From: Methanoculleus horonobensis
Lineage (GTDB): Archaea > Halobacteriota > Methanomicrobia > Methanomicrobiales > Methanoculleaceae
NCBI RefSeq assembly: GCF_001602375.1
Contig: NZ_BCNY01000015.1
Span: 682,001 to 746,000, forward strand
DNA length: 64,000 nt
Reading direction: 5' to 3'
The stretch's first letter is position 1. Each line of letters begins with the position of its first letter. Below are positions 16,163 to 47,660 of the stretch, piece by piece. The translations under genes were made by a program, and so were the position numbers. The notes below the pieces were generated by a model. That model was not told where the DNA came from, did no database searches, and worked only from the letters and a program-made list of their open reading frames with translations.

Positions 16163-16620
16163 GTTGCAAACCCCATCTACGGATTTCCATCGGCCATCGC
16201 CACGCACTGCCCGCCCCCGAAGGGGGCGGAACGACTTCCCCGCAGGGGAAGGAGTTTGAGCACCGTCAGGTGCGAATGAGGAGCGCGAAGCGCGGGCGGT
16301 GGGGGGCTATTTGAGGAGAGGCATCTGGTGTGAGATGACAGGGGAGGGGGGATGCTCCCCCCTCCCCACCTGATGGTGGTCGAACTCCGGGCGTTCCGCC
16401 CATCGCACTCCCCGTCAGCCCCTCGCACCTAACGGTGCTCGTGCTCCTGCCCTTCAGCCAGTCGCACTCCCCCAATGGCGATATCCCCTCGAAATCCGTG
16501 CATGGGGTTATGCGATGTTCCAACGGAACGACTTTCCGTAGGATGCAATGGCCCGATGGGCAGGAATTCGAGGAGTTTGGGCGCATCTCAAACCCCTGCC
16601 GATCTGTCCGTCACACCTTC
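16163..16620. repeat. Dispersed mosaic hairpin repeat, copy 1
   Basis: This is non-coding sequence between convergently oriented genes. It shares long words with the regions near 22.1 and 38.2 kb, including the 20-mer ATCGCACTCCCCGTCAGCCC at 16402 (also at 22414 and 38455). It is built from short inverted repeats such as GCACCTAACGGTGC and GAGCACCGTCAGGTGC. It shares a CTCCTGCCCTTC-AGCCAGTCGCAC block with copy 2 and GACAGGGGAGGGGGGATG with copy 3. No transposase, terminal repeat or target duplication is visible. Positions 16041-16162 hold nothing recognisable. Confidence 0.75.
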
Positions 16621-21800: not shown

Positions 21801-22013
21801 GTGGTAGCGGAGGATGGCGTCTTTTAAGATCTTGTTCCAGGCGGTGCCGAGATGGATGTGGCCGGTGGTGTACGGCGGCCCGTCGACGAAAAAGAACGCT
21901 TTCCCATCCTTTCGCACCTCCTGAACGCGTGCATAGGTGTTCTCCCGTTTCCAGGAATCCTGGACCCCCGCCTCAAGTTCGCGCGGGTTATAACTGCCGG
22001 TGACCTCTTTCAC
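18837..22013 (-). CDS. ileS: Isoleucyl-tRNA synthetase
   Basis: The protein has 1058 residues, the usual length for archaeal and eukaryotic-type IleRS. The class I HIGH motif is HIHLG at residues 52-56 and the KMSKS motif is at about residues 591-595. An editing CP1 domain (TTPWTLPANVAVAVSP) lies between them and a zinc-type knuckle CEQCGERT precedes KMSKS. The anticodon-binding domain (NILWNVYRFPLPYMV) and a C-terminal extension follow. It attaches isoleucine to tRNA-Ile in the cytosol. The gene is transcribed alone; the upstream 690 bases carry the repeat region. Confidence 0.98.
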   Translation of the reverse strand: MKEVTGSYNPRELEAGVQDSWKRENTYARVQEVRKDGKAFFFVDGPPYTTGHIHLGTAWNKILKDAILRYHRMQGRNIIERAGYDMHGLPIEVKVEHQLGFTSKKDIEDYGIAAFIEQCRTFAVTHMEIMSEQFRQLGIWLDFDDPYQTIKAEYIESAWWAVQRAEERGLLERGHRVVNWCPRCETAIADSEVEHWDETDPSIFVKFPVTGRENEYLVIWTTTPWTLPANVAVAVSPAFTYARVAAKKDGREEILWIADELVESVLKMGRYQDYTVLERASGSDLVGTEYTSPLAGQVPHQAEIRHRVVAADYVTLENTGLVHIAPGHGWDDYLVGIQEGLEAFCPVDSGGCFTREAGAFADMYVRDANDLVIDALGDYLLARRTITHRYGHCWRCKTPIIYRATAQWFLKATEIREPMLDEIAKVKWFPEWAGSARFHDFVKDSRDWCISRQRYWGIPIPIWQCEQCGERTVIGTIAELEERSGAKVPDPHRPYVDEIVIPCSCGGEMRRVADIFDVWFDSAVASWATLGFPRKREAFDRLWPADFITEGQDQTRGWFYSQLGASTVAFGRAPYKSVLMHGFALDADGRKMSKSFGNVVTPEEVMNQFGVDVLRFYVLWANAPWDDLKFNWDSVKTIHRTLNILWNVYRFPLPYMVLDSFEPAAGDGGLWDDSFVRTHIKDMPKEDRWIISRVNSLARTTAGDMQEYQLHKVTRALASFILEDLSRWYVQLVRARMWLEEDSVEKRYAYETVYYVMRRLIALLAPFTPHIAEEIYGNLRLAGDPESVHMLDWPGVDELLIAPDLESSMEVVRSFDDAVATARQNGRRKLRWPISETVVVTGSDEVKTALEELNELALNRANARAVRVVTGRWDRILWQAEPVMRAIGPEFGRDGPKVKALIESADGTALKTAIERDGKAQLDGYEIAERHVTFAEALPEGVFAAPMKDATVYVDVTLTPALEAEGYAREVIRRIQEMRRQLDLNVDDFIVAAVDVADERVASLIADEEWQKEIAGEVRAAALTVRRNGGKPAEPFALEKDWDVEGVQMQIGISRAGE

Positions 22014-22089
22014 CTCATATCCCTCATATTCAGCACTCTGGTGTACCGTTTGTTGTTGGGGGACAAAGCGTTTTGTACTATGTGGGGTG

Positions 22090-22625
22090 GTGCAGACTCA
22101 CGCGAAGTGCGACGTTCTGTCAAGCTCGCTTCGCTCGCACTCCGCACCCTCCGGGTGCTCGAGCTCCGTTCCTCGAAGCCTGACGGCTTCTCGAACTCCT
22201 GTTCTGCGGACAGTCGTTCTCCGGAACGTCGCACTCCGCACCCTCCGGGTGCTCGAGCTCCGTTCCTCGAAGCCTGACGGCTTCTCGAACTCCTGTTCTG
22301 CGGACAGTCGTTCTCCGGAACATCGCACTCCGCACCCTCCGGGTGCTCGAGCTCCGGGCGTTCGCACCTTCGGTGCTCATGCTCCCGCTCTGGCGACCGG
22401 TCGCATTCCGCCCATCGCACTCCCCGTCAGCCCCTCAAAGAACTTCGTTCCTCTCATGCTCCTGCCCTTCGGCCAGTCGCACTCCCCGCGTGGCGATAAG
22501 TGACGTTCCGGCAGGAACGGAGCTGGAGCACCGAAGGTGCGATACCCTATGGAAAACCGTGCATGGGCGTAGCCTGTGCAATGCTCCAGAGCACGGCGTT
22601 CGGCCGGAAGGTGACCCGTAAGAAC
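22090..22625. repeat. Dispersed mosaic hairpin repeat, copy 2
   Basis: This region between the divergent ileS and LOG-family genes belongs to the same family as the repeats near 16.2 and 38.2 kb. It carries the shared 20-mer at 22414-22433 and the same small hairpins (GCACC-TTC-GGTGC; GTTCC-GGCA-GGAAC). The 5' part is an internal 94-bp tandem array. The 3' part shares GTGCATGGG with copy 1 and GTGGCGATA with copy 3. All reading frames stay partly open because the period is not divisible by three, which produces spurious open frames. Confidence 0.8.
22141..22355. repeat. 94-bp tandem repeat (two full copies and a partial third)
   Basis: Units begin at 22141, 22235 and 22329, giving a period of exactly 94 bases. 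The two full units differ at only one position near their ends (GAACGTCGC against GAACATCGC). Each unit contains several short inverted repeats: GCACCCTCCGGGTGC, GAAGCCTGACGGCTTC and CTGTTCTGCGGACAG. The near identity indicates recent expansion. It is not a CRISPR because there are no variable spacers. Confidence 0.9.
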
Positions 22626-22703
22626 AAATCTTCCCCTGTTTCTTGATTCGCACATTGCCACTCCACCCCTCCTTTTATCCCTCACTCCCCCGACATCTCC
22701 CCC

Positions 22704-23186
22704 ATGCAGATTGCAGTCATCGGGCGGGGGGACTGCTCCGGGGAGGAGTACGAAGCGGCGGAGACCATCGGCTACCTCATCGCCGGGAACCGCGAGACCG
22801 TCTGCTGCGGCGGCCTCGGCGGGGTGATGGAGGCCGCCTGCAGGGGTGCAAAAGAGGCCGGCGGAACGACCGTCGGCATCCTCCCGGACACCGGGGAGGG
22901 GAACCCGTATCTCGATATCGTCATCCGTACCGGGATGGGCCACGCGAGGAACGTCGTCCTGGTAAACTCGGCCGACGCAGTGATCGCCGTTGGGGGTGGC
23001 TACGGCACGCTCTCGGAGATCGCCATCGCGCTCAAGACGGAGAAGCCCGTATTCGGCCTTCTGACCTGGAAGATAGAGGGGGTGTTTGTCTGCGCGACGC
23101 CCGAGGAGGCGGTCATCCTCGCAGTTCGCGCAGCACGCCTGTCCCGGCCGTCTCGTAGCCCCCGAGATCCCGGAGAATCTTCTTGA
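22704..23186 (+). CDS. LOG-family (TIGR00725-like) protein
   Basis: The protein has 160 residues. The family motifs GGLGGVMEAA and VGGGYGTLSEIAIAL identify the lysine-decarboxylase-like Rossmann fold. Related enzymes remove ribose 5-phosphate from nucleotides (LOG) or bind DNA-processing partners, but small archaeal members are uncharacterised. The last 25 residues are low complexity (RLSRPSRSPRDPGESS) and lie in a 74-base convergent overlap with the moeA fusion gene, so the native end may have been extended by loss of an earlier stop. Confidence 0.82.
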   Translation: MQIAVIGRGDCSGEEYEAAETIGYLIAGNRETVCCGGLGGVMEAACRGAKEAGGTTVGILPDTGEGNPYLDIVIRTGMGHARNVVLVNSADAVIAVGGGYGTLSEIAIALKTEKPVFGLLTWKIEGVFVCATPEEAVILAVRAARLSRPSRSPRDPGESS

Positions 23187-38176: not shown

Positions 38177-38510
38177 GTTGCAACCCCGTGCACGGATTTC
38201 CACCGGACATCGCACCTTCGGTGCTCCAGCTCCGTTCCTGCCGGAACGTCGCTTATCGCCACGCACTGCCCCCGCCCCCGGGGCGGGGTGCGACGGGCTG
38301 TAGGGCCGGAGCATGAGCACCGAAGGTGCGGAGGAGGAGGCCGGAGGCCGGGTGGGGTGGGGGTTACAGGCATTCATTCCGACGTGGAGACAGGGGAGGG
38401 GGGATGCTCCCCCTCAAACCCTACCGGCTTCTCGTGCTCCGTTCCTGCCGGAACATCGCACTCCCCGTCAGCCCCACCCCCACGTGGCGATAGCCACCAC
38501 GGTCCACTGT
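38177..38510. repeat. Dispersed mosaic hairpin repeat, copy 3
   Basis: This is intergenic sequence between the helicase gene and the convergent sensor gene. It shares CGGATTTCCA-CGG-CATCGC and CGCCACGCACTGCCC with copy 1, the 20-mer ATCGCACTCCCCGTCAGCCC at 38455 with both other copies, and GTGGCGATA with copy 2. It contains both orientations of the hairpin GCACC-TTC-GGTGC and the GTTCC-TGCC-GGAAC stem twice. Positions 38511-38632 show nothing recognisable. Confidence 0.75.
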
Positions 38511-47439: not shown

Positions 47440-47510
47440 TCATGCACCTCCGATAGGTATACTATGTTAAGTCCAGAAAAGAGTCCTTTTACTGACTAAT
47501 CTCTGTAATC

Positions 47511-47660
47511 CCGAGCCCTTGCGGGCAGTGCTTCCGGGAGCACGTCGGACTTACCACAGCCAGCACGTAGTCGTGCTGCAGTATCGTTCGCTACAAGATG
47601 CCTTAAGGATATCGGAGGCGTGTCCGGTTCCCCAGAAAATGCGATTCCTGGGGTTTTATC
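47511..47660 (+). ncRNA. Candidate structured RNA or long leader with four hairpins
   Basis: Between the divergent rps15 and sensor-kinase genes, four plus-strand stem-loops follow each other: GCCC-TTGC-GGGC (47515-47526), GTGCT-TCCGGG-AGCAC (47528-47543), CAGCACG-TAGT-CGTGCTG (47561-47578) and CCCCAG with CTGGGG around a 12-base loop (47630-47653), the last followed by TTTTATC. This could be a small RNA with a terminator, or the 5' leader of the kinase gene. No known family is recognised. Confidence 0.35.

Follow-up and report, generated by a model that had tools for sequence, protein, structure and literature searches.

The question raised by the spacer between ileS and a LOG-family gene in Methanoculleus horonobensis is what the near-identical tandem repeat within it is, and how it came to have a period as odd as 94 bp. 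The locus lies in a window (the whole stretch of DNA analysed, 64,000 nt) for which TRF returned eight rows, the strongest, and the only one in this spacer, being a tandem array at 22135-22356 with a period of 94, 2.4 copies and 99% matches (score 437, against 72 for the runner-up). The initial annotation had described a near-identical 94-bp array at 22141-22355; its period and near identity are confirmed and its location stands, with bounds that fall 6 and 1 bases short of those from TRF. The single base said to separate the two full units (22135-22228 and 22229-22322) is also borne out, being G22228 in one and A22322 in the other. Our answer to the question is that the array very probably arose by tandem duplication in place, within a single copy of a nested hairpin-repeat family that is dispersed and non-coding. 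In kind it is ordinary, i.e. a recent minisatellite expansion within a hairpin repeat: prokaryotic satellites and minisatellites are head-to-tail, near-identical copies with a period of >30 nt, which is the arrangement found here. A CRISPR array was considered and rejected, as the units abut and match throughout, leaving no unique spacers between repeats.

The array sits within a larger island of hairpin modules, the features of which are as follows (window coordinates).

22014-22703, no strand: spacer of 690 bp separating the divergent ileS (which starts at 22013 on the minus strand) from the LOG-family gene (which starts at 22704 on the plus strand)
22118-22650, no strand: hairpin-module island, ~530 bp, missing in four relatives (from alignment to those relatives; right edge +/- ~20 bp)
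22124-22138, minus strand: anchor GCGAGCGAAGCGAGC, closing the module series on the ileS side
22135-22143, minus strand: linker GGAGTGCGA, with copies at 22229-22237, 22323-22331 and 22415-22423, which bounds the modules at spacings of 94, 94 and 92
22135-22228, minus strand: 94-bp unit 1, made up of linker, B hairpin, linker and A composite
22144-22158, minus strand: B hairpin GCACCC-GGA-GGGTGC, with more copies at 22238-22252 and 22332-22346
22168-22228, minus strand: A composite, a closing helix GTTCC/GGAAC round the hairpins 22199-22213 and 22175-22190, forming a three-way junction
22229-22322, minus strand: 94-bp unit 2, one base off unit 1
22323-22414, minus strand: third module, 92 bp, with the same B hairpin and another A hairpin (GGGCG/CGCCC) holding another nested unit
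22420-22434, minus strand: anchor GGGGCTGACGGGGAG, closing the module series on the LOG side
22504-22540, plus strand: family hairpin pair in the opposite orientation, at the island's LOG-side end (from sequence and inverted repeats, with one such hairpin on either strand)

Linkers from 22135 to 22485 lie on the minus strand throughout and the hairpin pair at 22504-22540 is reversed, and the island as a whole is therefore a mixed-orientation cluster. A partial third unit had been read at the end of the array, which does not survive closer inspection: 22323-22356 is the B half of another module (22323-22414) with a different A half, and no truncated copy is present. It had also been argued that a period indivisible by three excludes a protein repeat. 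This was too strong, since overlapping ORFs of 86, 89, 136, 141 and 167 aa span the array wholly or partly, on both strands. The array is still better read as non-coding, given its absence from orthologous spacers and the way the family keeps clear of coding-like ORFs.

Each unit had been credited with at least three small hairpins. In unit 1 these are present, as one separate hairpin and two inside the three-way junction, and the unit folds with z-scores of -3.1 (plus strand) and -3.3 (minus strand) as RNA, and of -2.7 and -3.0 as DNA; the third module (22324-22416), however, folds weakly (z -1.5, with 16 of 200 shuffles as good). There is no window-wide excess of hairpins, with 54 triloop hairpins (stems >=6) compared with 80 in one Markov control. 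At the genus loci, chosen for the most part because they hold repeats, 133 of 290 strand-merged hairpins with stems >=6 have a GNA triloop. When stems >=5 are taken, the closing pair is C-G in 174 of the 252 GNA hairpins at these loci, and the 5' flank of the 252 ends mostly in GA (G 0.63, A 0.61). GNA and GNNA loops have been described as forming exceptionally stable DNA mini-hairpins (PMC4686876).

The pairing of the A composite was followed in an alignment of 26 copies, taken from the 30 that are near full-length among 69 distinct ones (left out were four that repeat aligned rows and 39 that are partial or interrupted). Paired bases occupy 98.5% of cells over the 26 rows, compared with 25-48% when the structure is slid along the alignment. 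Cells with double changes number 16 against a shuffled mean of 3.9, and the covariation score is 0.183 against 0.128, neither being reached in any of 500 shuffles. Pairs changed on both sides number 5 against 2.9, which was equalled in 36 of 500 shuffles, and the number of pair types was equalled in 141 of 500. In these aligned copies, three measures therefore give strong covariation support for the A composite and two give weak support.

The island is absent from four related genomes. Their ileS-LOG spacers are 158 bp (G006, G012 and G008) or 157 bp (G032) long, and the window aligns with all four up to 22117 and again from the LOG promoter region onwards. G006 and the window share 95.6% identity across 2203 bp towards ileS; towards the LOG gene the figure is 92.5%, across 849 bp. 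With a single genome per species in these locus comparisons, the island was most likely gained after the split from the sister lineages. In principle the island might instead have been lost there, but the close likeness of the empty spacers to one another makes this less likely. Other members of the genus carry different insertions in the same spacer. The G011 spacer (L084) holds a 45-bp family array that runs the other way and has a stretch of 172 Ns within it; this spacer matches the M. sediminis one (L109) in length and motif count.

Across 29 aligned spacers, conservation is good over ~75 bp beside ileS and partial at a TTTTATC-like box before the LOG gene, so that insertions collect between the two promoters. 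A conserved TTTGT...ACAAA at 22049-22067, about 36-54 bp upstream of ileS, is a candidate promoter or regulator site in the same 29 spacers. Scans of the spacer for sigma-70-type promoters and terminators gave no match, the promoter model being bacterial and of little meaning for an archaeon. Rfam gave four matches in the window at gathering score, none of them at the array or island; one, at 47505-47577, is an S15-Methanomicrobia ribosomal protein leader (73 bits). The two nearest LOG-family proteins in named records are from Methanoculleus (97 and 96%).

The modules of the island belong to a family that is dispersed and largely confined to the genus Methanoculleus. In the M. horonobensis assembly (2.45 Mb in 15 contigs, with the array internal to an 888-kb contig) the 94-mer has at least 32 matches, from 40 of 67 first-look candidates scored, and matches were found in 26 of 35 genus genomes. 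An exact 24-base signature, comprising the linker, the hairpin GCACC-GNA-GGTGC and GA, occurs in 27 of the 35 (509 copies). Outside the genus it was found in 1 of 197 genomes of the order, and the control gave no match. Read on the minus strand, the family has a grammar in which GGAGNNYGA linkers (linker form GGAGNNCGA) connect hairpins whose loops are mostly GNA or GNNA. Linker pairs 10-35 bases apart number 13 in the window, nine of them in the array, where 0.14 are expected; in the whole genome there are 84 against 8 in a reversed control, some of the 84 being plainly chance coding matches. Family copies are also intergenic: 48 of 49 distinct hairpin-bearing matches (L003-L050 and the window, after dropping matches lacking a 5-bp hairpin) fall outside coding-like ORFs. 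Of 9800 random positions there, 6968 fall inside, the coding mask being a heuristic from codon composition. Elsewhere in the window, a further family cluster lies at 16229-16470, where a 42-nt hairpin pair adjoins the GGGGCTGACGGGGAG anchor, and one lone family module lies at 38432-38464. Contigs C8 and C14 of the assembly start in or near family copies (L004, L018), and copy numbers may for this reason be understated.

Tandem growth is not peculiar to the ileS-LOG spacer. Other M. horonobensis loci contain TRF arrays with linker motifs at periods of 87, 45, 39 and 38 (97-100%); a fifth row with a linker motif (period 150, 69%) looks unrelated. The 87-bp array (L005, 872-1331) is a family array of 5.3 copies at 99%, and is missing in all seven of the other genomes where matches were obtained for both neighbouring genes (G003, G005, G006, G007, G011, G026 and G028); at six further loci in this comparison the upstream gene was unmatched. 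A longer array is found in another species, with seven consecutive signature copies at 46-bp spacing (G009:C1:262761-263060) preceded by one at 262698. By eye, module clusters at several loci (L005, L203, L202) often lie inside a larger repeat with long complementary arms round TATCGCCA or TGGCGATA.

How the 94-bp unit was built up can be followed from the distance between the two anchors. The sequence examined contains 38 distinct copies of GGGGCTGACGGGGAG (or GGGGCTGACAGGGAG), eight of which have GCGAGCGAAGCGAGC within 420 bases. The anchors are 1 nt apart at L075, 47 at L061 (which has another second hairpin), 48 at each of L012, L014, L015 and L077, 93 at L203, and 281 in the window. The 48-nt form consists of hairpin A and hairpin B, and L012 holds an unfilled GTTCC-GCA-GGAAC hairpin. 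In the 93-nt form a two-hairpin unit sits in the loop of A, which accounts for the step from 48 to 93. The window series consists of three filled modules of 92, 94 and 94 bp from linker to linker. The unfilled A hairpin of the third module, GGGCG-GAA-CGCCC, is present at L051, and also at L014, L015 and L077. Pairs of filled and unfilled hairpins exist between paralogous loci, chosen by eye from 189 raw candidates, many of which resemble exchange between linkers. As these pairs are mostly paralogous and hand-picked, we infer the order of events from them rather than reading it off directly.

In the proposed sequence of events, a base module of hairpins A and B (~47 bp) would have stood between GGAGTGCGA linkers, and a second two-hairpin unit (~45 bp) would have entered the loop of hairpin A, giving ~92-94 bp. 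Identical linkers 94 bp apart could then have allowed slippage or unequal exchange, leaving two near-identical units beside the third module. Slippage or unequal exchange is proposed because each 94-bp unit ends at GGAGTGCGA linkers, repeats on which such events could readily act, and the proposal is supported by a 32-nt difference between linker repeats at the apparently orthologous L020 and L055, together with the four further linker-bearing TRF arrays. The island itself most likely entered spare room between back-to-back promoters after the sister species had split. Single hand-picked pairs resemble 3-nt target duplications (GGA, GAA, GAG, GAC). In a test restricted to perfect hairpins with stems >=5, in which the 94-bp units of the window were not among the 41 units, 3-nt target duplications were seen in nine of the 41, compared with a shuffled mean of 5.7 and maximum of 11, which is not significant; the borders of nested units are therefore not fixed, and strict transposition is unproven. 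Terminal inverted repeats, a feature of MITEs, were not evident by eye in the units of this test.

At alignment column 33, in the inner stem of the A composite, the two window rows have A and the other 24 of 26 rows have G. The units share a common descent, and one was copied from the other, because this stem substitution is shared by both and absent in the 24 other aligned rows. The private substitution, with the absence of the island in four relatives, supports the recent expansion suggested in the initial annotation. The ongoing homogenisation offered there as an alternative is neither demonstrated nor required; the identity of the third 34-bp piece says little in its favour, since two other places in the genome carry these 34 bases at 100%. 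Those copies of the 34-bp B segment, at C13:274844 and C13:63545, could equally be cited for gene conversion among dispersed copies, which would have homogenised the units without duplication in place. We regard this as quite improbable given the substitution private to the two units, and among the candidates scored the best other genomic copies reach 96% over 75 bp. An artefact of assembly is very unlikely. Some family copies or arrays do lie at contig starts (C8:44; 1-165 of L018 on C14) and the L084 array contains its 172-base run of Ns, but the units here differ by one base, the 222-bp array is internal to the 888-kb contig, and comparable arrays are present in other assemblies.

A selected function at the ileS and LOG promoters, with structured RNA or DNA serving as a regulator, insulator or protein-binding array, would fit the compensatory changes that maintain base pairing and the presence of a 45-bp family array in the same spacer of G011. 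Kept pairing is, however, also expected if the hairpins themselves spread, the G011 array is reversed and made of other modules, and the four relatives have no island at this locus. The family also occupies many unrelated spacers and the island has no Rfam match, which leaves a functional element improbable; the island is probably without function for the cell. Most unlikely of all is a REP/REPIN (BIME) cluster moved by a RAYT (Y1) transposase. The many-copy small intergenic palindromes, the mosaic clusters and the one reversed hairpin pair at 22504-22540 are in its favour, but flank frequencies show no GTAG/CGTC foot, and Y1_Tnp has no match in M. horonobensis and a match, below cut-off, in only 1 of the 14 genomes with at least 10 signature copies.

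Enzymes that might move the repeats were sought across the 35 genus genomes. The M. horonobensis genome has no match for Y1_Tnp (RAYT), RVT_1 (PF00078) or IS110 (PF02371). Y1_Tnp is matched in seven of the 35 genomes (six over cut-off) and its count falls with signature count (rho -0.42, p 0.012), and REP/RAYT mobilisation was rejected. Reverse transcriptase (PF00078; 3 of 35 genomes, rho 0.08 in the 35 and 0.26 in the 24 that are >=90% complete, neither significant), IS110 (8 of 35, rho -0.35 against signature count) and DDE_Tnp_1 (PF01609; 31 of 35, with one match in M. horonobensis, rho -0.26) were likewise set aside. For no family of the four does the count increase significantly with repeat number in the 35 genomes, in correlations that ignore kinship and carry no multiple-test correction. 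Signature counts themselves rise with completeness (rho 0.45 in the 35 genomes, 0.11 in the 24). Viral carriage was also rejected: one IMG/VR contig has the exact signature, in surroundings of low-complexity frames of GC-rich repeat, and this was taken as chance.

Returning to in-place duplication within a nested family, how the family itself spreads invites a more tentative suggestion. It is conceivable, though we would not rank it as probable, that Methanoculleus harbours a self-nesting mobile DNA, in which a ~45-nt pair of GNA/GNNA hairpins enters the loops or arms of hairpins of its own kind to build branched trees, with no need of RAYT or reverse transcriptase, and in which the hairpins may act as exceptionally stable single-stranded DNA. 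The odd period of 94 bp is explained by a hairpin module of ~47 bp with a hairpin pair of ~45 bp within it. The coexistence of unfilled, filled and multiplied states of one module offers a readable record of cluster growth, and in a repeat-rich archaeal genus that is mostly without the usual palindrome-mobilising enzyme, spread becomes a testable question. The arrays could also act as copy-number typing markers for Methanoculleus.

Small dispersed repeats of cyanobacteria are also tiny and dispersed. We recognised no description of the Methanoculleus hairpin family in the open-access PMC literature, and the passages on repeats, intergenic regions, transposons and palindromes in the M. marisnigri JR1 genome paper do not mention such repeats (PMC3035220). 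A survey of prokaryotic satellites lists 21 satellites for M. marisnigri (8.47 per Mb, 71.4% with repeats >30 nt), including families of 45 and 51 nt (PMC6749651), and the likeness lies in long-period tandem arrays in the same genus. In its account of transposed non-coding satellites, the sole archaeal case named is Methanocella conradii (PMC6749651).

REP, REPIN and BIME elements are described as intergenic palindromes of 20-40 bp, present in many copies, in mosaic clusters and in tandem arrays (PMC3733652, PMC3116915), and the Methanoculleus family likewise consists of small palindromes in many intergenic copies. REPINs have also been reported to insert into or beside other REPINs (PMC3733652, PMC3116915). 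Unlike these elements as described, the family has no GTAG/CGTC foot, its loops are mostly GNA or GNNA, and the array linkers lie on one strand; the M. horonobensis genome, moreover, lacks a RAYT match. As to the alternating orientation of a BIME, the island has all its linkers from 22135 to 22485 on the minus strand and one opposite hairpin pair at 22504-22540. The GC clusters, double-hairpin elements and repetitive hairpin-forming elements of mitochondria are similarly made of one or two hairpins, mostly intergenic and conserved in structure, and they too merge into clusters and have an unsettled mechanism of spread (PMC4478555, PMC2800124). According to these descriptions they differ in that the mitochondrial elements vary in their loops, whereas in the Methanoculleus family the loops are conserved and the stems vary. 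The array is of a familiar kind, but the nested repeat family that holds it is a more unusual variation on the theme of small palindromes.
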